Of a DNA stretch of 64,000 bases, positions 19,935-52,843 are shown piece by piece. The notes under the pieces were generated by a model. The model searched no databases. It saw only the letters and a program-made list of their open reading frames with translations, and was not told the origin of the DNA. Location of the stretch: assembly GCA_023251875.1 (NCBI GenBank), contig JAHEXY010000007.1:1-64000 (forward strand). The letters run 5' to 3'. This stretch comes from Bacteroidota bacterium. Lineage in GTDB: Bacteria; Bacteroidota; Bacteroidia; JAHEXY01. Position 1 is the stretch's first letter; the number at the start of each line of letters is the position of its first letter. A program made the translations under genes and the position numbers.

Positions 19935-20780
19935 CTAGTAATTCCAAACATCGTGTTCCATATTAAAAATTTGTTCCTTTATTTGCTCAGCTTCCAAAAG
20001 CTGATCCATGGTATTGGTTTTGTAATCAGAAATTTGCCTATTAAAAGTATTCGACCATTTGTAAATATAGCTTGAAAATTTTCTTTTCATAAATATATCT
20101 TCTAGGGTTCGCCTTTCAGAATCATTCGTTGGATTGTATACTTCATTTTTTGCAAAAATGGGGCGCGCTTCCGGAAAATAAAACCAAAACAATGCTTCGT
20201 CTCCCCTGTATTCGCCTGTTGCATCATCAAATTTTTCACGAATAGGGCATATTCCAATTATTCTTACTTCCATCACAGATCTTTGTTTATCAAAAAACCA
20301 ATCTTCTTTTACCAAAAATGTTTTAACAGAAGATGGATCTAAGTTTTTCGGAACAACCTTTGGCTCCATAACATCGGGATTATCTGCATTGGGCACATAA
20401 ATAGTATCATTATGAGATAATAAGTCTTTTATTTCTTGAACGGTCATAGGTGCCTGAAATTCGTCATCAAATGCAGCATTCCCATATGCAGTTAATGACC
20501 CCTCACTTACAGATTGTAATATTACCTGCATCATACTTTTTCTATCCTTTATGGGCTCTGTAGGAAAATACAAAGGATGGTTCACTTTCTCTCTTAAATC
20601 AATTTTACGCCACACTCTTTTTGACCACATTACATCAGCTTCTCTTAGAAAAGGATAGGGAATATATTTTCTAGAAATGGAGTTTTCTTTAATATAATTC
20701 CCATCTAACACATTCTGCGACATCGACTTACCTGCAATCAAAACAATGCAAACAAGCAATACAATTTTTAGATTTTTCAT
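19935..20780 (-). CDS. gldN: Gliding motility / T9SS protein GldN
   Basis: The 281-residue periplasmic T9SS component (PorN homologue) follows gldM. It has a signal peptide (MKNLKIVLLVCIVLIAGKSM) and the conserved blocks KENSISRKYIPYPFLREADV, MWSKRVWRKIDLREKVNHPL, YFPTEPIKD and FWYFPEARP-type (FWFYFPEARPIFAKNEVYNP), with MKRKFSSYIYKWSN near the end. With GldK it forms the ring-shaped subcomplex on the periplasmic face of the outer membrane that meets the GldLM motor. The length is near normal. It is the last gene of the gldKLMN operon, with a terminator at 19870-19911. Confidence 0.93.
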   Translation of the reverse strand: MKNLKIVLLVCIVLIAGKSMSQNVLDGNYIKENSISRKYIPYPFLREADVMWSKRVWRKIDLREKVNHPLYFPTEPIKDRKSMMQVILQSVSEGSLTAYGNAAFDDEFQAPMTVQEIKDLLSHNDTIYVPNADNPDVMEPKVVPKNLDPSSVKTFLVKEDWFFDKQRSVMEVRIIGICPIREKFDDATGEYRGDEALFWFYFPEARPIFAKNEVYNPTNDSERRTLEDIFMKRKFSSYIYKWSNTFNRQISDYKTNTMDQLLEAEQIKEQIFNMEHDVWNY

Positions 20781-20871: not shown

Positions 20872-22494
20872 TTAGTTCCCACTAATGGTTATACTCATTG
20901 CACCTAATGTTCTAACAGTTTGATCACCACTCGACATTCTTGCTTTTACGTTTTCAATATATATTTTAGACCCTTTGCTTAATCTTCCAAATACATTTTT
21001 CATATCATCAGTAAATCTATTGCCAGTAGCTGATTTAGTTACTATAAAATCACCAACTTTAGCGGAAACATCAAAAGAAAGTACATCAAATTTTAAGTCA
21101 AAAGCAAAATTCTCTAATTCTGCTTGAATTCCACTTTGAGCACCTAATTCTGATTTTGATATTAAAAATGACCCATGTTTTTTGCCCATTGCCGGAGCAG
21201 GATCAGGAACAGCCTTAACCCTAAACTCTTGCTTGCCCATATTTACTTTAGTCCCATTTATTTCGGCAGAAACACTAATAGTAGCTATTTGGCCCGGAGA
21301 TGTTACCTTGGCAATATAATTTCCCTTTCCTTGAGAACTTAAAGTACAATTTGAAGGAGAAACCTGTACTTTATCTGAAGATACACCCGGAACTGAAATA
21401 GATAAAGGATTTTCAACACCGACATATAACACATTCATTTTAGTAGCCGCAACTGTAGCTGTAGGAGGAGAAACACTAAATTCTTTTTCAAAATCATATA
21501 AATTATATCCATTGCCTTCAGGGTTCTTTATTCTAATAATCCCTTTTAGTTTTTGAATACCCAATGAGCCAGATGGCATATCATAAATAGCGGAACCATC
21601 TACTACACGTAAGGCATTTTTAGCATCTAAACTAGCTGCACTCTCTTTTGTAGCACCAACAAATACTTCTGGAACCTGAGATTTATCCAATGCTCCTAAA
21701 AATATTTGGGCTTCACTTTTTGAATTTTGAAGAATAACATTGTCTGCAATTACAACGGGCGTCCACCCGGAAATTTTGTATGTCTTTCCCCCAATTTTAT
21801 CAAATAAGGCCTTAATAACATCCGATTCAGTTCCTTTTATATCACTTTGTATTTTTGAAAGTAAAGCTACGGAGGCACTAACAGGAGTATGATAAAATTG
21901 ACCGGCTTCCCAACTAATTTTTTCTTCTTTATTTTCAATAGAACGTAAATCTTCTGTATTGATAGTAAGATGCACCTTAATACTATCTGAAGTGGCTATT
22001 TTCTCTATCCCATCAACATAATCATTCAGTTTTTGCTTTAGCTCAGAAGCAGAATAATGATCTTTTCTTGGAACTGCAGGATCAGAGCCAATTAAAATAT
22101 TGGTTGGAGTATCATAATCATCTAGTTTTTCTATATCCTTTAAGGTCAGTTTGTTTTCTTTTATAGCAACAGTTGTGTCCAATTTTTCTGCTGTAGCCAA
22201 TAAAATAATTTTAAGCTTTCCAATAAAATTATAAAGTTCTTCCGATTTAGTTTTTACTTGCAAAGCATGTGTATAGCCTTCAGCATACTTACTATCTTTT
22301 GCACTTTGATCTTTAAACATATCCATAAGATCCTTATTTTTAGATTCAAAGGCCTTATTAGAAGTTTCAACTCCGTTATTAATAACTACAAATGCATTAA
22401 TGATTTCTTTAGAAACGTTTAGTGCTAATAGGGCAGTAAGCACTAGATACATCATCCCGATCATTTTTTGCCTCGGGCTTCCTTCAGCTGACAT
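20872..22494 (-). CDS. gldM: Gliding motility / T9SS motor protein GldM
   Basis: The 540-residue inner-membrane protein has one N-terminal transmembrane helix (KMIGMMYLVLTALLALNVSK, about residues 10-29) and a large periplasmic part. A helical region is followed by Ig-like domains near the C-terminus (TMNVLYVGVENPLSIS-type block, VRTLGAMSITISGN end). GldM is the rotor shaft that, with GldL, converts proton flow into movement to power secretion and gliding. The start MSAEGSPRQKM has a short cytoplasmic N-terminus, as expected. The gaps to gldL and gldN are each about 90 bp. Confidence 0.95.
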   Translation of the reverse strand: MSAEGSPRQKMIGMMYLVLTALLALNVSKEIINAFVVINNGVETSNKAFESKNKDLMDMFKDQSAKDSKYAEGYTHALQVKTKSEELYNFIGKLKIILLATAEKLDTTVAIKENKLTLKDIEKLDDYDTPTNILIGSDPAVPRKDHYSASELKQKLNDYVDGIEKIATSDSIKVHLTINTEDLRSIENKEEKISWEAGQFYHTPVSASVALLSKIQSDIKGTESDVIKALFDKIGGKTYKISGWTPVVIADNVILQNSKSEAQIFLGALDKSQVPEVFVGATKESAASLDAKNALRVVDGSAIYDMPSGSLGIQKLKGIIRIKNPEGNGYNLYDFEKEFSVSPPTATVAATKMNVLYVGVENPLSISVPGVSSDKVQVSPSNCTLSSQGKGNYIAKVTSPGQIATISVSAEINGTKVNMGKQEFRVKAVPDPAPAMGKKHGSFLISKSELGAQSGIQAELENFAFDLKFDVLSFDVSAKVGDFIVTKSATGNRFTDDMKNVFGRLSKGSKIYIENVKARMSSGDQTVRTLGAMSITISGN

Positions 22495-22588: not shown

Positions 22589-23470
22589 TTATCTTGAGGT
22601 AGTTCTTACATTTAAAGCAGTAAGCATATTGCCATATACATTATTCATAGCTTCAAGATTAGCGGCTAATTTTGAGATTTCATCTCTATATTTTTTCGTA
22701 TCATCAAGAGAGCTACTCAAATTTTCAACCATTTCACCAACACCCGAAAACATTTTTCTGCTTGCTTCAAATTGTTCATTTGCTTTTTGAAGTTGCATTT
22801 CATAAAGTGAATTTAATGCACCTAAGCTATTTGATACACTATTTATGTTCGAAGCATAATTTTTGCCATCTTCTGCAGCCAAATTTAACGAAGATAAAGC
22901 ATCACTTGCCTTTTGATAGGATTGTTTTAATTCGTCATTTGATGAATGTAATGTCTGAGAAGCATTTTCATATGTTTGAGATAAGTTTTCTACAGACTTT
23001 GAAGCATCTTTCATATTTACAACAAACTCATTTGTAGCAAGAGAAGCATCCGAAATAGAATTCATTTTATTTGCAGATTCACTAAGATTTTTGAATCCTT
23101 CTCCCAAACTATTTAAAAGCTCAGGACCAATTTTTGCTTCTTCTAACATTAAATCTAAGTGTTGAGAAGTACTTATTTCTTTATTCACTTTTTCAGGATC
23201 CTCATCTATTGGGAGTCCTGCCAATTCTGGATAAACCAAACTCCAATCATACTCCTCATGCAATGGTTCAAATGCCGAGAAAAAGAAAATAACTGCTTCT
23301 GTAGATAGACCTAAGGTTAACAGAAATCCTGCTTGAAAGGGAAAAAAGAAATTCCAGTGCTGAATTTTAAACAAGGCGCCAATAATTACAATAGCTGCTC
23401 CAAAACCATAAAGTTTAGCCATAAAACTTTTCCAGGTTTTACCCTCGGTGTCCATTCCAAGTACTTTCAT
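22589..23470 (-). CDS. gldL: Gliding motility / T9SS motor protein GldL
   Basis: The 293-residue inner-membrane component has two transmembrane helices near the N-terminus (KLYGFGAAIVIIGALFKIQH and FQAGFLLTLGLSTEAVIFFF, residues about 19-62). The conserved segment FSAFEPLHEEYDWSLVYPEL follows, then a long cytoplasmic coiled-coil rich in Ser, Asn and Gln. The helix-2 glutamate (STEAV) is the likely proton-carrying residue in the family. GldL pentamers surround a GldM dimer as a rotary motor. The gene sits between gldK and gldM in the standard order. Confidence 0.95.
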   Translation of the reverse strand: MKVLGMDTEGKTWKSFMAKLYGFGAAIVIIGALFKIQHWNFFFPFQAGFLLTLGLSTEAVIFFFSAFEPLHEEYDWSLVYPELAGLPIDEDPEKVNKEISTSQHLDLMLEEAKIGPELLNSLGEGFKNLSESANKMNSISDASLATNEFVVNMKDASKSVENLSQTYENASQTLHSSNDELKQSYQKASDALSSLNLAAEDGKNYASNINSVSNSLGALNSLYEMQLQKANEQFEASRKMFSGVGEMVENLSSSLDDTKKYRDEISKLAANLEAMNNVYGNMLTALNVRTTSR

Positions 23471-23588: not shown

Positions 23589-24866
23589 TTAAAAATCAGT
23601 TTTATCTCTGCCTAAGAAACTCATAACACATCTAAAACCAACATAACACTTAGAGGTATCTTGATATTCATATGTACGACTTCCTGTTTGCATATAATAG
23701 CCAATATCTTTCCAAGATCCTCCTCTAATTACTTTACGTTTTAATGCAGCAGGATCAGATTCTGTAGCTTCATATTCATAATCAGGATTAAGATCATGTG
23801 AGAAATTATAAGCAGATTCTTCAAAGGCATTACTAGTCCATTCCGATACATTACCTGCCATATCATATAAACCAAAATCATTAGGAGCATAGGTTCTTAC
23901 TCTTAGGGTATGAAAACCTCCATCACAAACATAATTTCCCCTCATTGGCTTAAAGTTGCCAAGAAAACAACCTTTATCATTTCTAATATATGGCCCCCCC
24001 CAAGGAAAAGGAGATCCATCAAGCCCACCACGAGCAGCATATTCCCATTCTGTTTCAGTTGGAAGCCTAAACTCTTGAACCGTTGGTCTCTCACTTTCAG
24101 AAAAAAAACTATTTAATAACCTAGATCTCCAAATACAAAAAGCTCTAGCTTGCTTCCAACTCACTCCAACTACAGGATATTCATCATAAGAAGGATGCCA
24201 AAAATACATATTTGTCATTGGATCATTATATGAATATGTATATTCATGAATCCAGCACAAAGTATCCGGAAAAATATTTAAGACATCTTTTTTAATGAAC
24301 ACAGAACGGTCTTTTTGTCCCTGTTCTCTATTTGCTCTTTGGGCTGCAGATTTTAAATCAATCCAGTAGTATTCAAAATTTAATCTACGCGTATCTATTT
24401 CTCTTTTCTTATAAAATCTTTCATGTTCTGGAAGATACATTTCTTCCAAAGTTTCCTTATTTGTTTCATCATCATATTTTATCTTCAAACTCCAATCAAT
24501 TCTTTCACCATATTCTCCTTCATCTAATATATGCTCATCTCCAATTAATTTATGGGCAATAGAATCCTTTACCCAATCTACAAATTGTCGATATTCATTA
24601 TTTGTAATTTCAGTATCATCCATATAAAATGCTTGAACAGAAACCGTTCTTTGTGGGGCCGTTTGGGCATAAGGAACATCTTGTTCACTAGCACCCATAA
24701 CAAAACTTCCTTGCGGAATAAAAACAGTTCCAAAAGGATCTGCTTGATACCATTTAGTTCGTCCTTGTGTACCTATTAATTCTCCATTTCCTGAATTTCC
24801 ACAACCAGAAAAAAAGAGCACAACAATAGATGCACATGCTAGTAAATATATTTTTTTATTTTTCAT
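23589..24866 (-). CDS. gldK: Gliding motility / T9SS lipoprotein GldK
   Basis: The 425-residue lipoprotein starts MKNKKIYLLACASIVVLFFS and has a lipobox ending in Cys at about residue 22 (FFSGC), then a sulfatase-modifying-factor (FGE) fold. Landmarks are GSFVMGASEQDVPYAQTAPQ, YMDDTEITNNEYRQFVDW, YPVVGVSWKQARAFCIWRSR, FRLPTETEWEYAARGG, MAGNVSEWTS, VIRGGSWKD and CYVGFRCVMSF. In GldK this fold is structural and not enzymatic. The protein forms the outer-membrane-associated ring with GldN. A 10-bp stem hairpin lies upstream at 24935-24960, between it and the porP/sprF gene. Confidence 0.95.
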   Translation of the reverse strand: MKNKKIYLLACASIVVLFFSGCGNSGNGELIGTQGRTKWYQADPFGTVFIPQGSFVMGASEQDVPYAQTAPQRTVSVQAFYMDDTEITNNEYRQFVDWVKDSIAHKLIGDEHILDEGEYGERIDWSLKIKYDDETNKETLEEMYLPEHERFYKKREIDTRRLNFEYYWIDLKSAAQRANREQGQKDRSVFIKKDVLNIFPDTLCWIHEYTYSYNDPMTNMYFWHPSYDEYPVVGVSWKQARAFCIWRSRLLNSFFSESERPTVQEFRLPTETEWEYAARGGLDGSPFPWGGPYIRNDKGCFLGNFKPMRGNYVCDGGFHTLRVRTYAPNDFGLYDMAGNVSEWTSNAFEESAYNFSHDLNPDYEYEATESDPAALKRKVIRGGSWKDIGYYMQTGSRTYEYQDTSKCYVGFRCVMSFLGRDKTDF

Positions 24867-25004: not shown

Positions 25005-25934
25005 CTATAAAAATCTTACGTCTTTATGAATATGTGTAGGAGGATTTGTATTCATTTTCATGCAATAACCCAACATAATTTCAACACTTCCACTACTATA
25101 GCTTCTTAATTTAGATGTAGTTACATCATACGCAACGCCAAAACGCAAACCATTATTAAGATTTAAACCTACATGTGGGACAACTGCATCTCCCAATCTA
25201 TAAGATACGCCTCCCCATACTAAATTATTGTAAAGAAGGTTAATGTTTGCATCAACCTGAGCAGTATGGCTATCTGATTTAATAAATACTGATGGACGTA
25301 AAACTAATGAAGGAACCGGTAATTGATAATCATAACCCAATGTTACATAATAATGACGAACCAATGAAAGATCAAGACTGCTAGTACTTAATTTATAACT
25401 TAAGTCCATTTGAGGAATATGTGTAGTAGAAATGCCTGCATATAAATTATTTGTATTATAATAAATACCTAAACCTAAATCAAACGTAGTAGCACTTACT
25501 TGTGATGTTGGAACTAAAGGATCATTTGATTGGATAGCAACAAAGCCTGATTTTAAGCTTTTATTATACATGCCTACTTCTGCTCCAATACCTAACTGGC
25601 CTGGACCCACATTTAAACGGAATGAATAAGCTAATTTAGCTCCAAAAGAAGACTCTAATCCTAATTGGTCTGAATAAACTGTTCCTCCAATACCACCATG
25701 TAATTTTGAAACATAAGTTTCAACACTTAATAAGCCTGTTTTAGGGGCTCCATCAAATCCCATCCATTGAGATCTACCTAAAAGAGTAGCACACAAAGCT
25801 TTATTACTACCTGCATAACCAGGATTGGTAAAAAGTTTGTTATACATATTTTGACTGAATTGAGGATCTTGTTGTGCGTACGACACAACTGATAAAATCA
25901 CAGAAAAGGAAATGAGAGTAAAAATTTTCTTCAT
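25005..25934 (-). CDS. PorP/SprF-family T9SS outer-membrane protein
   Basis: The 309-residue protein has a signal peptide (MKKIFTLISFSVILSVVSYA-QQ) followed by the family hallmark DPQFSQNMYNKLFTNPGYAG. SQWMGFDGAPKT and a series of barrel strands ending LRSYSSGSVEIMLGYCM follow. PorP/SprF proteins are outer-membrane barrels of the T9SS; SprF is needed for secretion and attachment of SprB-like adhesins that use type B signals. Genomes carry many paralogues, but this copy directly precedes gldKLMN, the position of the canonical porP. A -7 box lies at 26008-26015. Confidence 0.9.
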   Translation of the reverse strand: MKKIFTLISFSVILSVVSYAQQDPQFSQNMYNKLFTNPGYAGSNKALCATLLGRSQWMGFDGAPKTGLLSVETYVSKLHGGIGGTVYSDQLGLESSFGAKLAYSFRLNVGPGQLGIGAEVGMYNKSLKSGFVAIQSNDPLVPTSQVSATTFDLGLGIYYNTNNLYAGISTTHIPQMDLSYKLSTSSLDLSLVRHYYVTLGYDYQLPVPSLVLRPSVFIKSDSHTAQVDANINLLYNNLVWGGVSYRLGDAVVPHVGLNLNNGLRFGVAYDVTTSKLRSYSSGSVEIMLGYCMKMNTNPPTHIHKDVRFL

Positions 25935-26007
25935 AAATGAAAGGTTTTGAAGCGCTAAGTTAATGAATTATCAGGGCTCTTGCAATAGTTTTATTACATA
26001 TACTATA

Positions 26008-26015
26008 CAAAAATA
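26008..26015 (-). promoter_or_regulatory. -7 box of the porP/sprF-gldKLMN unit
   Basis: TATTTTTG on the minus strand fits TAnnTTTG and lies about 75 bp upstream of the porP/sprF start. No TTG was found at the usual -33 distance, so the call is tentative. Confidence 0.35.
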
Positions 26016-26063
26016 GCATTTTAATGAATTTTGGCTATATACACTTTTGAAATAAAATCAATT

Positions 26064-26099
26064 TTGAAATTGAAAATTGAAAATTGAAAATTGAAAATT
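26064..26099. repeat. TTGAAAA tandem repeat
   Basis: Four exact copies of the 7-bp unit TTGAAAA occupy 26070-26097, with one shortened copy before them. The array lies in the gap between the arginase-like gene and porP/sprF. Short A/T-rich tandem tracts of this kind are common between Bacteroidota genes and may vary in copy number. Confidence 0.6.
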
Positions 26100-26134
26100 A
26101 AATCAAGTAACATATTGTTAGTTAATGCCTTAAA

Positions 26135-27307
26135 TTATATTAATTTTTGAAAGGTTTGCCACCATTTATCGGGCATTTCTTCATTACATGCCAGTTGATA
26201 ATCATTATAAGAACAAGGGACTAGATGATGGCGTTCGTATTTTGATTTGGGAGATTGATTAGGGTAAGGCACATCCATCCACCAACGATCTGTTTTATTG
26301 CTTTTATAAAATACAATTTCATATTTATTATTTTCAAGGCTCACTCTGTATTTAACATGGCTAGAAGAATTAGGTGAAGGCAAATCATGTTTTCGACTAT
26401 AAAATCCATCTATAAAACACCAAATCATTTCAGCTATAAGATAGGCTGTTTGTTCATGGGTATCTAATTGAGGATTGTATTCAAAAATACCAATAGATGA
26501 AAGTTTTTCACTTAAGCCTGCATAACGCATCATTTGGCAAACATCCTCTCCATTAAAGCCATTAGGAGATGTAAAAGCAGTGGCGGGGGCATCGGCAAAA
26601 CGAATAGCTGAAATATCTACACTTAACATATCGGCATTTCGTACAATGGGTTCTACTTCTTCAATATTAGAACGAACCCAACCTAAACGGTAAGCATCAA
26701 AAAATAATTTTTGCAGGAGGTTAAGGGTACTTTGATCAACCAAATAAGTTTGGTAGCCAATATTACTGTAGTTAAACAAGTAGCAGGGTTGGTGTAAAAT
26801 AATTTTATCTAAATACGACTGGGAATTTATTTCAGAAAGTTCGCTATTAAAATCGAAACGAGGATCAATTGCTACAAGGTTAATAATTTGTTCCAGCTTT
26901 TCGTAAGCTCTATACATGGGGTAAGTGAGATCTTGGCCTCCTCCAATAACAATTGGAATAATATTATTTTTTATGAGTTGTTCTACTACTGATGTAAGTG
27001 CAAAATAGGTATCCTTAATTTCATATCCGGCTTTGATGTTTCCGAGGTCTACCATTTTTAAATTAAAATCGCCTTGATACAATGCATATAACTTTTTTCT
27101 AATAACATCAGGTCCATTGGCACAAGCGTGATTATTTATGGATTGCCGCCCTTCTTTTACGCCAATAAGTGCAAGTTGTACGCCTTCGCAATTGGGGAAC
27201 TGATTAGGATTATCAAAAATTTGAATCAATTTTCCAATTGCAGATTGGGGTAATTCTTGAATGTATTCGCTAAAATTGATGGGCTGAAAAAAGACTGATA
27301 AATCCAT
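26135..27307 (-). CDS. Arginase/formimidoylglutamase-fold protein lacking metal ligands
   Basis: The 390-residue protein has the ureohydrolase fold: LALIGVKEGRQSINNHACAN, GPDVIRKKLYAL, PIVIGGGQDLTYP, LVAIDPRFDF and MLSVDISAIRFADAP. Each metal-binding motif is degraded. GGGQD replaces GGGHD, DPRFD replaces DxHxD, and SVDIS replaces SxDxD. About three of six manganese ligands are gone, so ureohydrolase activity is unlikely. The C-terminal 80 residues (RWWMDVPYPNQ, HHLVPCSYNDY) are an extra domain. Homologues annotated formimidoylglutamase are, from memory, often found beside gld genes in this phylum, which suggests a structural or regulatory role in T9SS function. Confidence 0.75.
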   Translation of the reverse strand: MDLSVFFQPINFSEYIQELPQSAIGKLIQIFDNPNQFPNCEGVQLALIGVKEGRQSINNHACANGPDVIRKKLYALYQGDFNLKMVDLGNIKAGYEIKDTYFALTSVVEQLIKNNIIPIVIGGGQDLTYPMYRAYEKLEQIINLVAIDPRFDFNSELSEINSQSYLDKIILHQPCYLFNYSNIGYQTYLVDQSTLNLLQKLFFDAYRLGWVRSNIEEVEPIVRNADMLSVDISAIRFADAPATAFTSPNGFNGEDVCQMMRYAGLSEKLSSIGIFEYNPQLDTHEQTAYLIAEMIWCFIDGFYSRKHDLPSPNSSSHVKYRVSLENNKYEIVFYKSNKTDRWWMDVPYPNQSPKSKYERHHLVPCSYNDYQLACNEEMPDKWWQTFQKLI

Positions 27308-27470: not shown

Positions 27471-28058
27471 TTATTGTTCAGTTTCATTCATCGCCTTTTC
27501 AATTGCCTTTTCAGGAAAAAGCCAAATAAAAAAAATAATTATGAAAATCATAGCGGAGAGTATTATACTAAAATAGGCTGAAGGTATTAAGGCTAAATAG
27601 CCAATAGTTGAAATTGCACACTTTATTCGCAAATTTTTGAAGGCTATTTTAATTTCACTTTTATGAATAGATTTTTTTTCTATAAACCTTAAAAAAATAT
27701 AAAACGATATGCCTGTTATTAATAACAATATCCCATAAATAGCCACAGTATTGGGCTCAAAATGGTTTTCACCCATCCATGCTGTAGCAAATGGAGTAAG
27801 TGACAGCCAAAATAATAAATTAAGATTTGACAAAAGTATACCAGGGCTAATGTTTTTTATCATATGTAATATATGATGGTGATTTCCCCAATAAATACCG
27901 ATATAAATAAAACTCAACACATAACTGATAAAAACAGGAATGAGTGGTTTTAACGCTTCAAAATCACTAGAATGAGGGACTTTAAGCTCTAATACCATTA
28001 TAGTAATTATTATTGCTATAACACCATCACTAAAGGTTTCTAACCTAGTTTTATTCAT
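27471..28058 (-). CDS. TMEM175-family membrane protein (DUF1211), second copy
   Basis: The 195-residue protein starts at the ATG at 28058 (MNKTRLETFSDGVIAIIITI). The longer ORF upstream (to 28118) lacks family similarity. Helix 1 has the DUF1211 signature RLETFSDGVIAIIITIMVLE, and further helices include VFISYVLSFIYIGIYWGNHH and LLFWLSLTPFATAWMG. The WGNHH and P-F-A-T-A-W residues are typical of the subfamily with a potassium-channel fold. It differs clearly from the copy at 11713-12393, so the two are not recent duplicates. Confidence 0.8.
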   Translation of the reverse strand: MNKTRLETFSDGVIAIIITIMVLELKVPHSSDFEALKPLIPVFISYVLSFIYIGIYWGNHHHILHMIKNISPGILLSNLNLLFWLSLTPFATAWMGENHFEPNTVAIYGILLLITGISFYIFLRFIEKKSIHKSEIKIAFKNLRIKCAISTIGYLALIPSAYFSIILSAMIFIIIFFIWLFPEKAIEKAMNETEQ

Positions 28059-28119
28059 ATTTAATTTTATTAAAATTCTTATATTAATTTTCAAATAAGT
28101 ATTCAAATAAGTAATCAAC

Positions 28120-29009: not shown

Positions 29010-32000
29010 TTATTGTGACAAAGTAAATCTGAAAGTAAGTCCGGAACTTGCTGTAACTGTTCTAAAGCTTGAAGGTACAAATGGATTTGTTGCAGTTCTA
29101 TCAAAAAACAAACGAATGCTTAAACGTTTACTTACCATATAATCTGCAGAAAGATTAATGGTAAAAATCTTTCCTCCAGAAAATTCTTGGTTACTATTTT
29201 CTATAAATCTACGCAAAACCACTTTTTCATCTTTTACAGAAACATTTGCTTTTAGATCAAGATCGCTTTTTAATTTTTTCTTTATGCCTTGTAATTTATA
29301 AGGTATCACTACATCTTTTATTTTATACCCCATACCAATTACAACCTCATTGTAATTTCTTTCATTAATTTGATAATTAGAAAGACTCATGCCCAAAGTA
29401 CGTTCTTTTCTGTATTCAACTTTTATGGTCATACTATTATTCATAGTAAGATTTACTCCTACTAATGGACTAAATTGTTCTGTTAATAGAACATCATAAA
29501 TAAGATATTTTGAAACAAAATTACCCGTTGTATTATAGGTACTTGAATAGCCACTGTACTCATCATAATTAAGATCGCTTGTAAATGAACTTACACTGTA
29601 AGTAGATTTATAGCCATGCGTTAAAGAAACTTTACTGAAAAATTTCTTAATAAATTCAATGTTTGATAATCCATCGTAGGTAAAATTCCAGTTGGGCATA
29701 GGAATTTGTGGAAATGGAGAAAGTGAAAATTTTGGATTGTTAGGATCTTTACCTGAATAGGCCGCAATAAAAGCAGGTATTAATACTTCTTGAGAGCTCA
29801 AGCCATATCCAATTGGATAGCCAACAGAATCAACCGGATTTCCAACATAATTTGGGTTCTTTTTAGAAAGAAGGTTGGCAATGGTTTTTGTATAAGCAAT
29901 AAAATTTTGGAAGGTTTTATTACCATCTTTTTTATAGGGTTGAAAAGCACTGTTTATTGGAAGAAAGGTAATGGTAAAATTACCACTTTCAGTAGGGCTA
30001 AACGATTGATAGTTTCCATATGCATCGGCTCTAAAATATTCTTGGTGGTTGAGCGAATAATTTCTATCGGCAGTAAGATCAATTTTAAAATTAGGAATAG
30101 GCTCAATGGTAGCTTTTAGATTTAGATTTTTAGTAAGTGTTGTATGGTACAATGAATTTAAAGTAGAATCTTTGGTGATCCATTCGTTTTCAATAGCCAA
30201 GGGGCGAATGTCTTTTTCACTGCCAAAAAGAAAAGGTAAACCGGGAGCATTGGCATTCCAATCTTGGCCAATAATTTGTGATTGGGGTTGATAACCGGGC
30301 ATATATATACCATGCGTTTCGCTATAATTAATAGATACATTTCTAAGTCCCATTAAAATTCTAAAAGTATAATCAATTAGAGAGGGCCCAGGTTCTTTTT
30401 TAGCTTTTTTAGGCGTTGCAGAAGAATCTGATGCGGCAGCTTCTTTTTCTTCAGCACCTTTTTTGAGCAGGTTAGCAGCAGGTTTTCTTTTGCTAGTCAT
30501 TTTTTGATCGATCTTATTTAAGTATTTAATTTTTTTATAGAGTTTATCAAATTGAAACTGACCATTGATTTGTTTTGTATTAGAATTTTGAATGGCATTA
30601 CCGTACTGCGTTATTGCTGGAGGGGCTGCTATCCAATCGTAGTTTGCACTGTACTTTGCAGTTGAAGTAATCCAATTGGTTAAAGGAGTTTTATTAATGG
30701 GTAAATTATAACTCACATTTAGTGTATGGTGGTAGGTAAGATTACGACCAAATGATTCTATATTTTTCCATAACGAATCTCGTTTTTCAGGAGTATCAAT
30801 ACGGCCATCGGGCTCATCAATTCTGGCAGCATTGGTTGCTGTAAAATCTACTTTAAAGGCTGTGGTAAGATCGTATTTTAGGCTGTAAACACGATTCCAA
30901 TTAAATTGTTTGTTATAGGTTGGGTAAATAAGTAAATCGGCAGTGCTGGTGTTTCTACGTAAATTTTCTTCAAAATAACGATCTAAATCATTTTGTACAG
31001 TAATGCTACCGGGAACCAAATAAAAATTAACATCCTTAACGGGTTGCCACCATCCAGAGGCAAGAAACTTTTTAGAAAACTTATCGAAACTTTGTTTTTT
31101 CTTGCCTACCTCTTCTATGTCTTTTTCGAGTTGTTTTATTTCGGTTTGGCTTTTATTTTCTGTTTTTAATATTTGTAATTGCGTTTTTAATGTTTTTTCT
31201 TTTTCAGTATAGTTGGTACTAATACTTTTTGTTATGGAAGTCATTAATGGTAATTTTTTAAATGGAGCATAATTAGGCCTGCTTGGCGCCCATGCATAAG
31301 CAATAGATCCCTTATGTGTTTTTATCATATCATGATCGGTTGTAATATCTCTACTATAACCTTCGGTATAGGCATAAGTAAAAGTAAAATTGGAAGGATC
31401 GAATGGTAAACTTATAGGCCCCTTTGGCTTTTGAGGAGTTTTAGCATTCTTTAAATCTACTTTTGCATTCGGGTCAGGCTTTTTTTCTTTTTTAGGTTTG
31501 TTTACTTTATTAAATTTTACGTTAGTAAAATTGATACTTTGCATTTTATGATAGGTTTGAGCAATCTTTTTTAAGGAATCTTGTTGTGCAGCAGATAGGC
31601 TGGCCAAAGCATCCGAAAATTTAATATCGGGGTCAAGTGGATTATACTGCGGATTACTAATTGTTTCTGTTTGCCCTATATACATGGGTATTGTAACCGG
31701 TATTTTATCGGGGAGAAATTTCTTTAAGTCAATACTTGAAGAAACATCATATTGGTATACATTATCTCTACTGCGTTCGCTTACATTTTTATCAATACTA
31801 CCAAAACCAAAAGTGGTAATATTACCTGCCATATTTAAGGTTCCTAAATCAGCCAATTTAGTATTTATATTCATAGTAGCAGCCCAACCTCCCGATTCAT
31901 CAAAATCACTTACACGAAGTTCGTTTACCCATACCTCAGCACATTTTGATAAATAATCTCCACCTGTAGGGTTTCTTACTCCAATCATAATGGTTTTAAC

Positions 32001-35000
32001 ATTGGTTAGATTAGGATTTCCCACAATTGAAATTTTGTTACCCCCATCTACAACTACATAAGGTATATTTACTTTAACACCCGAATTAGGATCTTGCAAT
32101 AATTTATTTCTATCAATTTTAGCATCGTATAATTTTTGTAATTCAAGGTTTAATTCATTTTCAAGTGGCCATACGAGTCTGCTTTGAGTAGTATCATCAG
32201 AATTATAATTTCCGGGAGAGGTAACCTTAAGCGGAATTTCGTATTCATAATAGTTATCAATAAAATCACTTCCTAAGCGAATAAAAGCAGTAACATCACC
32301 GTTGTTTAACGTTTCTTCGCCTGAAGCTTCGGCATGTATATACATTCTTAATCTCTTATACGAACGGAAATCAAATTCTGTATTTTTATACGCTGCACGA
32401 GCATCACCATCTTCCAAATTACAAACTTTATATTGCAAAGCTTGTTCATTTTGGTGTACCAATTGATTTAAAGAATAATCTTGTTCTCGTGAAATTCCGG
32501 GAGGTAAAACGTAATTTACAGGATCTTTTTGACCGTGCTCTTCGTAATTTACGTTTGCAATATTAAAGGTTGTAGGATCATCGTCATTGGGAATATATTC
32601 ACCTGGCGCACGTAAATCGAAATTATATTTTCTCCATTCACCCCTTATCAATTGCAGTGTAGCAAACCTAAGAACAACTGAATCTTGAAATCCTTTTAAA
32701 AACATACGCATAAAACGAATGGAACGAAAATCTTGAATACCGCCAATGGCTACATCGGGTTCATTTAATGGTATTCTGAATTGGTACCAAGTTACTTCGT
32801 CAGTTTTGTTATCGGTAAAAGTTACTGTTCTTTTTTCTGCATCAACAATGTAATTTTTACCCACTACCATATCAGCAGGGCTTAAATCTACTTTATACTG
32901 AAAATAGCTTTCAGATTCACTTAAGTTTTTATCATTGTTTACATCTTCATCATTGGGAAGATTAGTTGCTTGTGTAACATATTTTCCGGCAGAAATATCG
33001 GCATCCATGGTAGTGGTATTGGTGTTACCATCCATTCCATTGTATTTTTTATAGCGTTGAAGAATGGAAACTTGCGCATTATCCCAATCATCGCCTAAAA
33101 AATAATGGTAGTTATCAGAAGATGGATCGTCACTTGCACTTATGTATGCTTGAGATGATGTGCCATATGTTGTTGAAATGGCATCTATAAATTGTTGTTT
33201 AAAAAATGAAGACTCGTCAGCATCATTCAATCCATCAATTCCTGCATCTTGATATTGGCGCGAACTCTCATCACTATTAAAAACATCCACCAATTCAATG
33301 GTATTAGAAACCCTACCCCAGCTAGTAGTATCAACATTTTCAACAGTTGATGATCCGGGCAATCCATTTTCAAAACTTCTGCGAGAATCTTTTAAAACAT
33401 CTTCAGAAATATTACCCACGTTAAAATACAATTGCCCTCCTTGCGAATTGGTATTGTAAATAAAAGGATCCATTACCCAAAACTCAATAAACTGAACGTT
33501 GGCGGCCTCAAAATCATTGGTTTGAATTTCCCTGGTAATACCAGCCCAACGGGAAGATGCGTCTTTTAATTTTCCATCAGCATCAATTCCTGCAGAATAA
33601 CCACCCACGCCATTTACATCATAGTTATAAGGCCCTCTTTCTTTTGGATAATAAGCTAAATCGAGCACAGGAATATTGGTAAGTGTACCCGAAGGGTTTT
33701 CTTTTTTAGGATAAATTTCTTTTTCAAAAACGAGACGCTGATAGTGATTTTTTTCTGCATCATCAATGGTATAATAACTTGGCCTTTTTCCATCTTCAGT
33801 AAGAATGGGATCGATATTATACCATGCTAATTTGGCTCTGTTAAATCCTGTAGTAATATCATCGTTTAAAGATGCTTCAGGAAAAAGAGAAGCTTGACCT
33901 TGTGGGACACTTGAAATTTTCCAAGCAGATACGGTTTTTAAATCTATACCCGATTGGCTTCCTTCAAAGTCATCAACATAGGCATTTCCTTCGTCACCAA
34001 TTACATTATTGTGGCCGGGAATGAGATCAGCAAATTCTCCTTTTATAGCAATAGTAGAAGGCGTTTTAGTATTATAAAAAGGCAGTTTATCTAAAATTTT
34101 GGTTAACAAACGTGACTCCGTATAATAATCGCCATTTAAACCCCAAATGGTATTATTAATAGGCTCATCTCCAATATTTACTTTATACGTGAATGGTTTT
34201 TCACGCAAATTAAGAGCCGTTGCGCCCAAATTAAAATTATCGGATACTTTATAATCCAAATGAGTACCCATAAAAGTTTTAGAGGTAAAACTGAACATGC
34301 TGGTATTTTCATACGAAACATTAATATTGGCTCCAGAATTCAATAGGCCATTATTAATAATGGTTACCTGCCCAATGGTATAATCAACTGTATAGTCAAC
34401 ATTTTCTGTTAAGGTTGTTCCATTAGCAGTAACCGTTACAGAACCCTGAGGAACATTCATTGCATTCAGTGAAATTCTATTGCTAAAAGTAGATTGATAG
34501 GTACCCCCTACACGAAATTTATTTTTGTCGGGAAATTGTTGAGCGGCAGTTTGAGTTTGGCTATAAAGTTCATCGTAAGTATATTTATCTGCAGTAGTAG
34601 AACTTTTAAACTTGCTTCGCAAATAATCTCCAAAAGGTTCTAGAACAGGGAAATAAATTCTTCCATTGGCAGAGTTAATGGTTACTCCTTCAACAAAATC
34701 AAATAAGCCATCCGATTTTGCTTCTTGATTATAATTTAAATTATCTAAGCCCAATACTTTTAACAAGGGAGTAGAGGTAAGGTTGGGTTCACTTGATTCG
34801 GGAATATAATTGATATTGGTACCTGTTTCATCATTGGTATAGAGCACATCTAAATGAAAATTATCTTTATTGATTTGATAGGAACCTAAAGAGTAAACGT
34901 TTTTCATCATTAAATCCCAAGTAGGCAGGCTTGTATTTACATTGGTACTTTTTAAAAGTTTTACGATAATGGAACTTTCACTGGAAATATCGGTAGAAAA

Positions 35001-36491
35001 TTCACCCACTTGATAGGTTTGTCCTCCCAACGTATATTGAAAAGCCACCGCCAATACTTCATCTGAGTTAAGTGTTGTACTTAAAGAGATATAACCCAAT
35101 TGTGAATTAAATGTATATTCTGATTCTGATAGTTTACGGGCCAAGGTAACTTTTTCATAATCTTGAACCGACAAAAAGCCTTTTGCGGTAACAGCTGTTG
35201 TGCCTAATACTTTTGTAACATTATTAATGTCTCTAATACCCGAATAGGTTGATGTCATTAAACTATACTCATCATTAACATCATTAGAGGGATACAAATA
35301 AGACGCGGTACCGGCCCCAATTAATCCAATAAAGCCTTGATCTTTTTTATACCAATTGGCTTCTCCAAGATCCATAAAAGCAACAATGTTACGCGTATTG
35401 GTTGTAGCTCCGGTAGTGTTGGTAACCCAAACTTCCATCTTGGTTATATTAATCATCGAATTGATATAGGGAAGATTTGAAAGAGCATTATCATAATTAT
35501 CTCTAAAATACTGTGCAACGAAATAATGTTTATTGGCTTCATATTCATTGGCAGAAATATTAAACTTATTGGTTTGAGCACCACCTTTTAACTGAATTTC
35601 TTTTTTCTCACCTTGGCTTCTTGATAATACTGAAGTAACCGTAAGTTTACCAAATTGCAATTGTGTTTTTATTCCCATTAGTGTTTGGCTTCCGGTAATT
35701 AAGGAACCGGTTAAGGGCATGGTTACATTTCCTGCTTCAACCAATTTTATGATATCATCTTCTTCACCCTCGTATTTCAAATTCATTTTATTATCAATGG
35801 TAGGCATCAGTGATTCTGTATTAAAATTGGCTTTCATTTCCATTCGGTCACCAATTTTACCCACTACACTGAGCTGAATTTTTTGATCAAAATTAAAAGC
35901 CGTTTGGGTTTGTTGCCTGATGGTATAAGCAGGATTTTCATTTTTACTGTAGTTGACTCCTAGGGTAATTTCGGCTGAACCGGATGGACGTATTTCTACT
36001 TTTGATCCACCTAGTATCTTATCCATCAAATCATTTTTACTCGATTCTATTTGAGGAACCAAGGCTTTTTGTTTTGAAAAATCATCGGCTTGTGCGCGTT
36101 GGCGCCAATAGTCTTTTACTGCTTTATCGATATCATAATTAACATATTCATCAAAAGTCATGTAAGTAGGATTACGATAATTCATATCCCCTACTTTTTG
36201 TGTAATATCATAATTACCTGTTTTAGGATTATAATCTACTGAAGTTTTAACGTTTGAGGGATCGTTAAGATACAAACTGCTTTTTGATGATGTATCGGGC
36301 TGGGCCGAATTAGAATTTTGAAATTGGTACGGTAAACTTATTGCATTTGAATTACCTGTTATTGGAGTATCTGCAGGAAAGAGAAGTGTATTCGTATATT
36401 TGCCAACCTTGTTTGCGCTTCCAACCCAAGTTCCGGAAAAAAGAACCAATGCTATAATTGAAAAAAGAGAGTATTTAATCCAGTGCTTCAA
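29010..36491 (-). CDS. sprA: T9SS translocon / gliding protein SprA (Sov)
   Basis: At 2,493 residues this is the largest gene in the window and matches the size of SprA/Sov (about 2,400-2,500). It starts MKHWIKYSLFSIIALVLFSG, a signal peptide. Conserved stretches include YWRQRAQADDFSKQKALVPQ, GSAEITLGVNYSKNENPAYT and DDIIKLVEAGNVTMPLTGSL. Others are ITGSQTLMGIKTQLQFGKLT, NAYVDDFEGSQSGIDLKTVS and EVWVNELRVSDFDESGGWAA. SprA forms the 36-strand outer-membrane barrel through which folded T9SS substrates leave the cell. A lysine-rich stretch (about residues 1600-1640) and a coiled-coil segment (about 1720-1750) lie in the C-terminal half. A -7 box is at 36560. Confidence 0.95.
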   Translation of the reverse strand: MKHWIKYSLFSIIALVLFSGTWVGSANKVGKYTNTLLFPADTPITGNSNAISLPYQFQNSNSAQPDTSSKSSLYLNDPSNVKTSVDYNPKTGNYDITQKVGDMNYRNPTYMTFDEYVNYDIDKAVKDYWRQRAQADDFSKQKALVPQIESSKNDLMDKILGGSKVEIRPSGSAEITLGVNYSKNENPAYTIRQQTQTAFNFDQKIQLSVVGKIGDRMEMKANFNTESLMPTIDNKMNLKYEGEEDDIIKLVEAGNVTMPLTGSLITGSQTLMGIKTQLQFGKLTVTSVLSRSQGEKKEIQLKGGAQTNKFNISANEYEANKHYFVAQYFRDNYDNALSNLPYINSMINITKMEVWVTNTTGATTNTRNIVAFMDLGEANWYKKDQGFIGLIGAGTASYLYPSNDVNDEYSLMTSTYSGIRDINNVTKVLGTTAVTAKGFLSVQDYEKVTLARKLSESEYTFNSQLGYISLSTTLNSDEVLAVAFQYTLGGQTYQVGEFSTDISSESSIIVKLLKSTNVNTSLPTWDLMMKNVYSLGSYQINKDNFHLDVLYTNDETGTNINYIPESSEPNLTSTPLLKVLGLDNLNYNQEAKSDGLFDFVEGVTINSANGRIYFPVLEPFGDYLRSKFKSSTTADKYTYDELYSQTQTAAQQFPDKNKFRVGGTYQSTFSNRISLNAMNVPQGSVTVTANGTTLTENVDYTVDYTIGQVTIINNGLLNSGANINVSYENTSMFSFTSKTFMGTHLDYKVSDNFNLGATALNLREKPFTYKVNIGDEPINNTIWGLNGDYYTESRLLTKILDKLPFYNTKTPSTIAIKGEFADLIPGHNNVIGDEGNAYVDDFEGSQSGIDLKTVSAWKISSVPQGQASLFPEASLNDDITTGFNRAKLAWYNIDPILTEDGKRPSYYTIDDAEKNHYQRLVFEKEIYPKKENPSGTLTNIPVLDLAYYPKERGPYNYDVNGVGGYSAGIDADGKLKDASSRWAGITREIQTNDFEAANVQFIEFWVMDPFIYNTNSQGGQLYFNVGNISEDVLKDSRRSFENGLPGSSTVENVDTTSWGRVSNTIELVDVFNSDESSRQYQDAGIDGLNDADESSFFKQQFIDAISTTYGTSSQAYISASDDPSSDNYHYFLGDDWDNAQVSILQRYKKYNGMDGNTNTTTMDADISAGKYVTQATNLPNDEDVNNDKNLSESESYFQYKVDLSPADMVVGKNYIVDAEKRTVTFTDNKTDEVTWYQFRIPLNEPDVAIGGIQDFRSIRFMRMFLKGFQDSVVLRFATLQLIRGEWRKYNFDLRAPGEYIPNDDDPTTFNIANVNYEEHGQKDPVNYVLPPGISREQDYSLNQLVHQNEQALQYKVCNLEDGDARAAYKNTEFDFRSYKRLRMYIHAEASGEETLNNGDVTAFIRLGSDFIDNYYEYEIPLKVTSPGNYNSDDTTQSRLVWPLENELNLELQKLYDAKIDRNKLLQDPNSGVKVNIPYVVVDGGNKISIVGNPNLTNVKTIMIGVRNPTGGDYLSKCAEVWVNELRVSDFDESGGWAATMNINTKLADLGTLNMAGNITTFGFGSIDKNVSERSRDNVYQYDVSSSIDLKKFLPDKIPVTIPMYIGQTETISNPQYNPLDPDIKFSDALASLSAAQQDSLKKIAQTYHKMQSINFTNVKFNKVNKPKKEKKPDPNAKVDLKNAKTPQKPKGPISLPFDPSNFTFTYAYTEGYSRDITTDHDMIKTHKGSIAYAWAPSRPNYAPFKKLPLMTSITKSISTNYTEKEKTLKTQLQILKTENKSQTEIKQLEKDIEEVGKKKQSFDKFSKKFLASGWWQPVKDVNFYLVPGSITVQNDLDRYFEENLRRNTSTADLLIYPTYNKQFNWNRVYSLKYDLTTAFKVDFTATNAARIDEPDGRIDTPEKRDSLWKNIESFGRNLTYHHTLNVSYNLPINKTPLTNWITSTAKYSANYDWIAAPPAITQYGNAIQNSNTKQINGQFQFDKLYKKIKYLNKIDQKMTSKRKPAANLLKKGAEEKEAAASDSSATPKKAKKEPGPSLIDYTFRILMGLRNVSINYSETHGIYMPGYQPQSQIIGQDWNANAPGLPFLFGSEKDIRPLAIENEWITKDSTLNSLYHTTLTKNLNLKATIEPIPNFKIDLTADRNYSLNHQEYFRADAYGNYQSFSPTESGNFTITFLPINSAFQPYKKDGNKTFQNFIAYTKTIANLLSKKNPNYVGNPVDSVGYPIGYGLSSQEVLIPAFIAAYSGKDPNNPKFSLSPFPQIPMPNWNFTYDGLSNIEFIKKFFSKVSLTHGYKSTYSVSSFTSDLNYDEYSGYSSTYNTTGNFVSKYLIYDVLLTEQFSPLVGVNLTMNNSMTIKVEYRKERTLGMSLSNYQINERNYNEVVIGMGYKIKDVVIPYKLQGIKKKLKSDLDLKANVSVKDEKVVLRRFIENSNQEFSGGKIFTINLSADYMVSKRLSIRLFFDRTATNPFVPSSFRTVTASSGLTFRFTLSQ

Positions 36492-40484: not shown

Positions 40485-43400
40485 CTATTCTTTTACCAAT
40501 TGCTTATTTAAAATCTGATTACCTGAATATATTTTTACCAAATAAATTCCATCAGATAAATGATCTATAGCAATAGACTTATTCAATAATTCCGATTTAT
40601 TAAACTCATTTACTTTTTTACCATATACATCTATAATTTCTAATTTATCAAGTTTTGCCGATGTTTGAATGTTCAATATGTTTTTTGCCGGATTAGGATA
40701 AATTGAAATGTTTTGATAATTACTGATTTCATTTATAGAAGATTGATTTTTAACCGCAACAACAATGGTATCGAAACATCCATTATCATCGGTAACCTTT
40801 AAGGTATAAGCACCAACAGAAATATTATTTAAGTCTTCGGTGTCATCATTATCTCCTGTACTATCATTATCCCAATCATATTGATATGGAGGTTGCCCAC
40901 TACTTACTGTTATATCAATAGCTCCATCATTATTATTAACAACATTTGTAACTATTGCATTAATTGTAGGCAATTCATTTACTGTAATTGTTATAGTATC
41001 TGAATTTGCACAACCATTACTGTCGGTTCCACTAATAATATAATTGTTAGTAGCAATTGGTATAAAACCAATACTATCTTTCACATTATTGTTCCAAGCA
41101 TAAGTTTGAGCTCCATTGCCATAAAGAATAACAGAATTACCTTTGCATATACTAACAACACTTGCATTAGCAATTACATTTGGTAGACTATAAACGAATA
41201 CATTAAGAAATGCAGTATCCTTACAGCCCAAACCATTATCTCCTATAACTGTATAAATCTGGCTACTATCTGCATATACAATAGTTCCATTATTAATTCC
41301 ATTGTTCCAAGTCAAATTATATGCACCATAAGTTTTCAATAATATTCCATCATTTGTACAAATTTTTATTGTATCGCCATTAAGATTCCGAATATTTATA
41401 TTTTGGTTATTTTGATAATATTTAATTTTGCCATCATCGTTACCAATAAAGGCATCCATATCTCCATCTTTATCAATATCTGCAAAAGTAGTGACAGGAT
41501 CATATGGTACTAGTGTACCGTCAAATGGATTTGAAGAAGATGTTTGTTGATTAAATACAGGACTATTAACTGTACCTGAGTTTTTATAAAAGTAAATGCG
41601 ACCTAAACTTTCTCCTATAAAAACATCAAAGTCCTTATCATTATCTATATCAACAAAAATAGGAGCTGAATATGATGCTACATATACACTATCCAATGGA
41701 TTTAAGGAAGATAATTGTTGAGTAAATACAGGAATATAAGCTGTTCCTGTATTTTGAAAATAATTAATATATCCATCTTTTTCTCCAATAAATGCATCCA
41801 TATCTCCGTCATTATCTATATCACAAAAAGCTATAATCGATTTCGTTCCTACATCAACTGCATCAAAAGGATTATTGGAAGATAATTGCATTGCAAACAA
41901 AGGACTGTAATTCGTTCCTTCATTTTTGTAATAAAAAATTTTACCACTTTCAGATCCCACAAACACATCTAAATCTCCATCACTATCAATATCTGCAAAA
42001 GCAGGAGTTGCATAATACCCCACTTTTACGTTATCCAAAGGATTTTGAATTCCTGTTTGATGAATAAACAAAGAATTGTATGCAGTTCCAATATTTTCAT
42101 AATAATAAATATATCCGTCCATTTGCCCAACAAAAGCATCCAAATCTCCATCATTATCAATGTCTGCAAAAGCCGGAGCAGAATATCCTAATGCATTAAC
42201 CTGATTTAATGAATTTGCAGAAGAAGTTTCTAAAAAAAATGAAGGAGCAGAAGCTGTGCCATAATTTTTATAGTAGTAAATATGTCCTGAAGATTCGCCA
42301 ATAAAGACATCTTGATCTCCATCCGAATCAATGTCAACGAAGGTAGGAGTAGCATTAGCTCCAACATCCATACCATTAAAAGGTGAGGAATAAATTTGAT
42401 TTGTAAATATTGCTGAAGAATTATTACCTGTATTTGTATAATAATAAATAGTTCCATCAGAAGCCCCTACAAAACAATCAAAATCTCCATCAATATCGAT
42501 GTCAATAAAGCTAGGTTTTGAATTACTTCCAACATTGATTCCATCCAATGGGTTTGATGAAGAAATTTGTTCAATAAATGCTGGATTAGAAATTGTACCT
42601 ATATTTTCATAATAATCACTAGTTCCATTATATGTTCCTATAAAAACATCTTTATCACTATCATTGTCAATATCTACAAAAGAAGGAGAAGAATTATACC
42701 CCACATCAAAACCATTAAATGGATTATTGGCCCCAAGTTGTTGAGTAAATACTGGATTAATAACTGTTCCTGTGTTTTTGAAATAATACACTACTCCATC
42801 AAACCCACCAATATATGCATCTTGGTCACCATCATTATCAATATCTATAAAAGCAGGAGTTGCATTCTCTCCTACATCTATTCCATCTAAAGGATTATCA
42901 GAAAATAATTGCAGTGTATAAATTGGAGTATTTGAGGTACTAGTATTTTTATAAAATCGAATAGTCCCGTCAAATTCTCCAATAAATAAGTCGAGATCCA
43001 TATCACTATCGATATCAATAAAAGTAGGCTTGGGAAAACTATCTATTTCTATACCATCCATATTAGTAAGAATAATTTGCTGTGTAAAAATTGGTTTGGA
43101 TGGGGAGCCTGTATTCTGGAAGTAATTAAGCTGTCCATCAAGTGATCCTATCACAATATCAGCATCGCCATCAGTATCAATATCTACAAAAAAAGGTGAT
43201 GCATTATTTGAAACATCAAGCCAGCCCAATACATTAGCTAAAGAACTTTGGAGAACAAACACTGGATTAGATGAAGATCCTACATTTTTGCAATAATAAA
43301 TTTTCCCGTAATTTGCTCCAATAAAAACATCATAATCACTATCAGAATCAATATCAACAAATGCAGGAACTGAACTGCCAACAACGTCTATTCCATTAAA

Positions 43401-52233: not shown

Positions 52234-52241
52234 GGCTTTAT

Positions 52242-52272
52242 TCCCCTCCCCGTTGGGGAGGTTAGGAGGTGT
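52242..52272. repeat. GGGGAGGG-type palindromic repeat, copy G, at the tdk/murF-alr junction
   Basis: In opposite orientation to copy F, this copy reads TTCCCCTCCCCGTTGGGGAG followed by GTTAGGAGGTGT. Its reverse complement matches copy F at nearly every position. It overlaps the last codons of tdk, encoding the final HTS and the stop codon. Confidence 0.7.
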
Positions 52273-52843
52273 GTTTTTGATTATTATAACAATCTCTGCA
52301 CAGTGCTTCATATTCTTGTTTTTCTCCCAATACTACCAATGATTCTTCTGAACCAATACGATAAGAATGGTGAGCTAAGTATCCACAACGAATACATATT
52401 GCATGAACTTTAGTTACATATTCTGCAACAGCCATTAGATTGGGTATTGGCCCAAATGGCAAACCTCTAAAATCGGTATCTAGTCCCGCAATAATAACCC
52501 TCACACCACGGTTAGCAAGTGTATTGCATACGTTCACCAATTCCATGTCAAAAAATTGAGCTTCGTCAATACCCACCACATCAATATCATTGGCGTATAA
52601 AAGTATGCTTGAAGAAGAAGTTACGGGTGTAGAACGAATCGCATTTTCATTGTGAGATACCACCATTTGTTCATGGTAGCGAGTGTCAATGGCAGGTTTA
52701 AAAATTTCTATTTTTTGTTTGGCATATTCAGCACGCTTTAACCTTCTGATCAATTCTTCGGTTTTTCCTGAAAACATAGAACCACAGATTACTTCAATCC
52801 ATCCTCTTTTTGATGCGCTATTTGCTGTATTTTCTAAAAACAT
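52262..52843 (-). CDS. tdk: Thymidine kinase
   Basis: The 193-residue type II thymidine kinase phosphorylates thymidine with ATP for salvage. The P-loop is in [20 protein letters not shown] (about residues 18-37). The Walker B-like segment is [20 protein letters not shown]. The lasso-domain zinc cysteines are in [11 protein letters not shown] and CRDCY. The C-terminal residues HTS and the stop codon come from repeat copy G, so the native end of the protein has been slightly altered. The 139-bp hairpin element lies directly upstream. Confidence 0.95.

Follow-up and report, generated by a model that had tools for sequence, protein, structure and literature searches.

The window, as we term the whole 64,000-nucleotide stretch of Bacteroidota DNA analyzed here, encodes an arginase-fold protein (ARG) that belongs to a single clade in which the private ligands of one of the two metals have been lost in an ordered manner, whereas the positions of D124, D128, and D232 (arginase numbering) are held. 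ARG is present in most of the Bacteroidia genomes sampled, including some that have no SprA. The explanation we favor, at about an even chance of being right, is that ARG, a relative of the formimidoylglutamase branch of ureohydrolases, is non-hydrolytic and acts in the cytosol as a ligand-binding or scaffold protein.

Table 1 Features of ARG and of its neighborhood in the window
Feature	Position	Strand	Evidence
gldN	19935..20780	minus	TIGR03523, 222.4 bits, over cut-off
gldM	20872..22494	minus	TIGR03517, 340.5 bits, over cut-off
gldL	22589..23470	minus	TIGR03513, 201.7 bits, over cut-off
gldK	23589..24866	minus	TIGR03525, 589 bits, over cut-off
porP/sprF	25005..25934	minus	TIGR03519, 241.7 bits, over cut-off
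ARG-porP gap, 200 bp from stop to start codon, with a single TAnnTTTG promoter-like box (26008-26015)	25935..26134	minus	
ARG, arginase-fold protein with altered metal site, 390 aa	26135..27307	minus	ORF, Pfam, and predicted model
Added C-terminal domain (residues 308-390), in which four strands are followed by two helices	26138..26386	minus	model and alignment
Ureohydrolase-fold domain, about residues 12-307	26387..27274	minus	residues spanned in at least 1/5 of structure-match rows; Pfam 45-298
EYNP, residues 276-279; E276 at canonical substrate-site Glu	26471..26482	minus	alignment; E in 95/111
SVDIS, residues 229-233; D231 kept, S233 at canonical second-metal Asp	26609..26623	minus	alignment
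DPRFD, residues 148-152; D148 and D152 kept, R150 at canonical second-metal His	26852..26866	minus	alignment
GGGQD, residues 122-126; Q125 at canonical first His ligand	26930..26944	minus	alignment
sprA, 1.7 kb upstream of ARG	29010..36491	minus	TIGR04189

Within the window ARG lies directly upstream of porP/sprF and gldKLMN on the same strand, as the first-pass annotation had stated, and NCBIfam matches over cut-off bear out the identity of these genes. The window genes upstream of ARG are a TMEM175-like potassium channel gene (27471-28118, directly upstream), a VanZ-like gene, gcvH, and sprA, and not topA. Three large proteins with T9SS sorting domains are also encoded in the window (40485-44024, 44223-46298, and 60847-63453; two with Por_Secre_tail and one with CHU_C) and are likely cargo of the nearby-encoded T9SS. 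A single 875-residue open reading frame at 49684-52311 carries both Mur ligase and alanine racemase domains. On another contig the window genome has a second GldM over cut-off (G000:C11:472364-473995), and some 13 kb from it (486775) lies an arginase-family match.

The ureohydrolase scaffold proposed from the sequence was borne out. Pfam Arginase (PF00491) matched residues 45-298 of ARG (E 3.5e-26; 92.8 bits vs a cut-off of 22) and an AlphaFold2 model built from the window protein and 79 relatives had a mean pLDDT of 93.5 and a pTM of 0.93. The alignment used for the structure (A3) comprised 79 of the best 80 loci, L151 being excluded for its uncertain start, and alignment A4 held 14 loci plus the window. 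The best solved structure for the model was 4myn, the formiminoglutamase of T. cruzi (Z 37.6, rmsd 1.9 Å, 278 residues, 19% identity), and the B. subtilis formimidoylglutamase 3m1r gave Z 35.7. Overall 4myn, 4mxr, 2a0m, 3m1r, and their kin gave Z values of 35.4-37.6 at 17-19% identity, the match spanning about residues 13-307. As ARG has no obvious signal peptide, we take the protein to be cytosolic. In a 40-row tree all 21 ARG rows formed one clade with support of 100/99. At one locus (G444:C1:921211-922257) ARG was split into three matches, one of which contained two in-frame TAG stops, indicating either a pseudogene or an assembly error.

One reading of these matches would be that ARG is an ordinary formimidoylglutamase (HutG) of histidine breakdown. 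TIGR01227, the HutG model, was the top NCBIfam match of ARG and matched 63 of the 65 members of ARG alignment A1 at E 1e-5. However, ARG scored 88.3 bits against an equivalog cut-off of 229.15, its metal ligands are lost (see below), and a scan of five window neighbors of ARG found no hut gene. Moreover, some of the same genomes have a separate HutG. Among 54 chosen genomes nine had HutG over cut-off; seven of these (G406, G002, G422, G076, G012, G029, and G095) had a clear ARG beside it, and G064 and G158 had only weak ARG-profile matches. Given the score, the ligands, and the separate HutG, we rejected the HutG assignment, which we regard as extremely improbable.

The metal site was assessed by alignment with nine HutG proteins that score above the family cut-off. 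The six ligand columns are HDHDDD in six of them and HDHDCD in the other three (L205, L210, and L212), in which Cys thus replaces one of the bridging metal-ligand Asp residues. We take site A of arginase to be H101, D124, D128, and D232, and site B to be D124, H126, D232, and D234. ARG has Q-D-R-D-D-S in the six columns vs H-D-H-D-[D/C]-D in HutG, and hence the claim that GGGQD, DPRFD, and SVDIS stand in place of the canonical motifs with three of six ligands replaced was upheld. For counts across the family 178 rows were thinned at 80% identity to 118, from which L059-L068 were set aside (L059 and L060-L064 are very divergent, L065-L067 are an outgroup, and L068 is short) to leave a core of 111 relatives. 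The loss runs through the family: none of the 111 relatives (<80% identical) had all six ligands, and thus no six-ligand homologue was found at the same locus. An unthinned check of the 168 rows outside L059-L068 gave the same result, with Asp at residue 233 in none and six ligands in none.

The loss was far from uniform along the site. The acidic residues of site A were retained, residue 148 (the D124 column) being D in 109 of the 111 relatives and G in two, residue 152 (D128) D in 99, N in 11, and H in one, and residue 231 (D232) D in 110 and E in one. Residue 125 (H101) was Q in 91, H in 15, N in three, P in one, and K in one. A complete site-A set of H-D-D-D was present in 13 of 111. The two columns private to site B behaved differently. 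Residue 150 (H126) was occupied by 17 residue types with H in only seven of 111, and 380 of the 390 columns were less variable, whereas residue 233 (D234) was S in 66, G in 18, T in 10, and otherwise one of eight other residues, but never D. These column counts argue that the family has lost the private ligands of site B and held on to site A.

The surroundings of the site were also altered and conserved. Residue 276, which we take to be in the column of the arginase substrate-site Glu (E277), was E in 95 of the relatives, G in 11, N in four, and S in one. Residue 54 was R in 107 of 111 ARG proteins vs E in all 12 HutG-like proteins, and residue 273 was G in 108 of 111 vs D in all 12; since each follows a strand in the model, both residues probably lie at the pocket. 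That the site-A acids, E276, and the altered rim have all been held argues against mere decay of ARG.

The same residues raise the main chemical rival to our favored explanation, that ARG is still an active enzyme that uses one metal in the kept half-site to act on a new substrate. With one metal bound by the kept Asp residues, catalysis could still take place, which counts against a non-hydrolytic protein, as do the retention of residues 148, 152, 231, and 276 in most relatives, the 13 relatives with a complete His-Asp-Asp-Asp site, and the altered but conserved pocket. The T. cruzi formiminoglutamase, the nearest enzyme fold, appears to have Asn at the position of the first His, judging from a PDB title ('N114H variant'), and hence Gln at residue 125 alone proves nothing. 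Set against one-metal catalysis are the failure to keep either of the second-site columns and, judging from PDB titles, the harm done to arginase by loss of first-shell metal ligands. Loci L060-L064 also speak against it, since in these the gene persists with every ligand lost except Asp at residue 233 (the L060/L062 pair lies on a long branch, 2.13, in the 40-row tree). On balance we consider a one-metal enzyme unlikely, at about one chance in five.

ARG also has an extra C-terminal domain, originally put at about 80 residues, and this was confirmed: the addition, counted with residue 310 as its first, is 81 residues in ARG vs 0-4 in the nine HutG proteins. Five residues of the domain (W342, W343, C365, Y370, and P379) were invariant in the 111 relatives. 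Searches with the domain alone gave no confident PDB match, which is not proof of a new fold. The SH3-like hints were weak (SH3b_P2 best E 0.0022, in two of 15 members; spectrin SH3 E 0.11), as were the structure matches (Foldseek best E 1.3; best Z 4.1, to 2fjt; PARP2 WGR Z 2.1-2.4). As the domain is without an assigned fold, any output role given to it is a guess.

A protein lacking a complete metal site could pair, as a metal-free subunit, with an active enzyme of the arginase family. The metformin hydrolase MetCaCb provides a precedent (PMC11271267), and the window genome has two further arginase-family matches besides ARG. However, a search with TIGR01227 at E 1e-8 found ARG to be the only family member in genomes G099 and G359, and thus no active partner is needed there, although the other genomes mostly have further matches. 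Likewise, each of 98 loci contained a single open reading frame with a match to the window protein at E 1e-5. A partner-subunit role is therefore very unlikely in our view.

The first-pass annotation had described genes annotated as formimidoylglutamase as repeatedly placed near gld genes in this phylum, and had proposed from this a non-catalytic part in gliding or type IX secretion. The placement did recur, and the interpretation was sustained in part. In all 40 genomes of family f5 with an ARG match, GldM followed ARG on the same contig and strand at a distance of 2153-2459 bp, and topA-ARG-porP-gldKLMN was a frequent order among the best 80 of at least 590 loci, a sample that makes the counts lean to close relatives. 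The gene upstream of ARG in this order codes for type I DNA topoisomerase, the one member checked scoring 681 bits with TIGR01051 (cut-off 456). Yet among the 53 of these best 80 loci with both flanks longer than 3.5 kb, gld/porP adjoined ARG in only 22 and was absent next door in 31: topA and gld/porP were both present in 18, topA only in nine, gld/porP only in four, and neither in 22. At L060-L064 gldKLMN was absent from the 17 kb covered, and four of these five loci had topA upstream of ARG by one to three genes. In 13 other loci (L123, L146, L155, L160, L162-L164, L172-L176, and L178), several from named Sphingobacteriaceae, an opposite-strand gene of one sequence cluster precedes ARG instead of topA, and the one cluster member checked is a dTDP-glucose 4,6-dehydratase. 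The topA-ARG-porP-gldKLMN arrangement looks like an old gene order that some lineages have retained.

Spacing set ARG closer to topA than to the secretion genes. The distance from the topA stop to the ARG start had a median of 38 bp (range -59 to 508; 49 loci), whereas the ARG stop was separated from the first in-frame Met of porP or gldK by a median of 144 bp and never by fewer than 110 bp (37 loci), values that are lower bounds for the real gap. A single TAnnTTTG box was present in 12 of 38 ARG-porP/gldK gaps vs a mean of 6.8 and a maximum of 14 in shuffles, which is not significant; the two-box form, in six of 38 vs a mean of 1.2 and a maximum of 5, is suggestive. Within 150 nt upstream of ARG the single box occurred in 22 of 81 cases (shuffles mean 5.8, maximum 13) and the two-box form in three of 81 (mean 0.7, maximum 3). 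Given this over-representation of TAnnTTTG, ARG may often have a promoter of its own. The F. columnare operon is treated, by prediction, as gldKLMN alone in PMC5879114.

Distribution was examined in 395 Bacteroidia genomes with the ARG profile at E 1e-10 and GldM at E 1e-3. ARG matched 366 genomes, an upper figure because weak matches, down to E 1.6e-12, may represent other members of the family, and GldM matched 378 (369 over its cut-off). Both were found in 357 genomes, GldM only in 21, ARG only in nine, and neither in eight; for the 339 genomes with completeness of 90% or more and contamination of 5% or less the corresponding numbers were 316, 14, three, and six. As ARG and GldM are both near universal in the class, their co-occurrence is weak evidence of a link. 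The exceptions cut both ways: 14 of the 330 good GldM-bearing genomes lacked ARG, and some genomes had ARG without a SprA match. The SprA profile found no match in six of 15 chosen genomes, and G359, G002, and G445 of these six carry ARG. In G359 there was no match for SprA, GldM, GldD, or GldB, whereas G002 has GldM and no match for SprA, GldD, or GldB. G445 (95% complete; no GldM or SprA match) was not counted, since only 471 bases separate its ARG from a contig end, where the assembly is possibly truncated. A search of eight genomes added G730 (Sphingobacterium sp. B16; completeness not stated), which has ARG and no SprA match. Among nine ARG genes compared pN was 0.12-0.30; the synonymous sites were saturated, so no dN/dS ratio can be given and selection on ARG since the loss of SprA is not separable.

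Gliding rather than secretion was considered as the trait linked to ARG, and 71 chosen genomes were searched for GldD and GldB. Five genomes without ARG (G410, G190, G249, G371, and G347) matched both proteins and, as noted, G002 and G359 have ARG and neither. ARG absence does not follow GldD or GldB, and these genomes give a gliding link no support.

These data bear on the main biological rival, that ARG is a dedicated accessory of the T9SS or of gliding, perhaps acting on the cytosolic part of GldL. In its favor are the position of ARG upstream of porP-gldKLMN in the window, the 22 well-flanked loci of like arrangement among the best 80, the joint occurrence with GldM in 316 of 339 good genomes, and the unbroken gldKLMN order in 40 of 40 f5 genomes, which favors some tie between ARG and the T9SS. 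The 14 good genomes with GldM and without ARG, the three with ARG and without a SprA match (G359, G002, and G730), the 31 loci where gld/porP does not adjoin ARG, and the gap of at least 110 bp argue otherwise, and the co-occurrence is confounded. T9SS-bearing genomes are not the only ones with ARG and can do without it, and a dedicated part in the T9SS or gliding was not supported. We think such an accessory improbable, if the least improbable of the alternatives. A functional tie is possible in those lineages that keep the porP-gldKLMN order, but it is not general.

Our favored explanation of ARG as a non-hydrolytic binding or scaffold protein would proceed as follows. ARG would no longer carry out the two-metal activation of water, the kept half-site and altered pocket would bind a small ligand or a single metal, and that binding would be passed on, or a scaffold role exerted, through the C-terminal domain. 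ARG may have the structural or sensory role suggested at the outset. A more specific version, in which a one-metal or metal-free sensor would use the C-terminal domain to couple T9SS motor expression or GldL activity to the nitrogen or guanidino status of the cytosol, strikes us as distinctly less probable than either main rival.

We found no description of ARG in the open-licence PMC literature, where the one paper from a search for co-mentions of 'arginase' used the word for a biochemical test. The word is not mentioned in the available parts of PMC10936215, PMC12635249, PMC5879114, PMC8986121, and PMC8754138 and has two mentions in that of PMC9169529. As HutG is the closest curated family, ARG is apt to be read as a formimidoylglutamase, and metabolic models of Bacteroidia would then contain a false step. 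With a half-site lost in order over most of a class and a domain added, ARG constitutes a natural experiment in the repurposing of an enzyme fold, and the 13 relatives with one complete half-site vs L060-L064 with almost none provide a direct test set.

Among known systems HutG (TIGR01227; 4myn, 4mxr, and 3m1r) is the closest to ARG, in fold over about residues 13-307 and as the best curated family by sequence, but ARG falls far below the family cut-off, has lost half of the ligands, carries the extra domain, and coexists with a separate HutG in some genomes. The PorP-GldKLMN core locus of the T9SS neighbors ARG in the window and in many relatives, but genomes with T9SS genes are not alone in having ARG, and some of them lack it. 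The arginase-like protein of T. brucei is an arginase-fold pseudoenzyme. So is MetCb of metformin hydrolase (PMC11271267); such pseudoenzymes are thus already known. ARG shares with both proteins the ureohydrolase fold and the lack of a complete binuclear site. It differs from them in that the loss is ordered and extends over most of a class, a half-site is kept, a domain has been gained, and two genomes show no evident active partner. Histone deacetylases, which have the same superfold, bind one metal with a retained Asp-His-Asp set, that of the other site. ARG would likewise have one metal site instead of two, but it keeps the opposite half.
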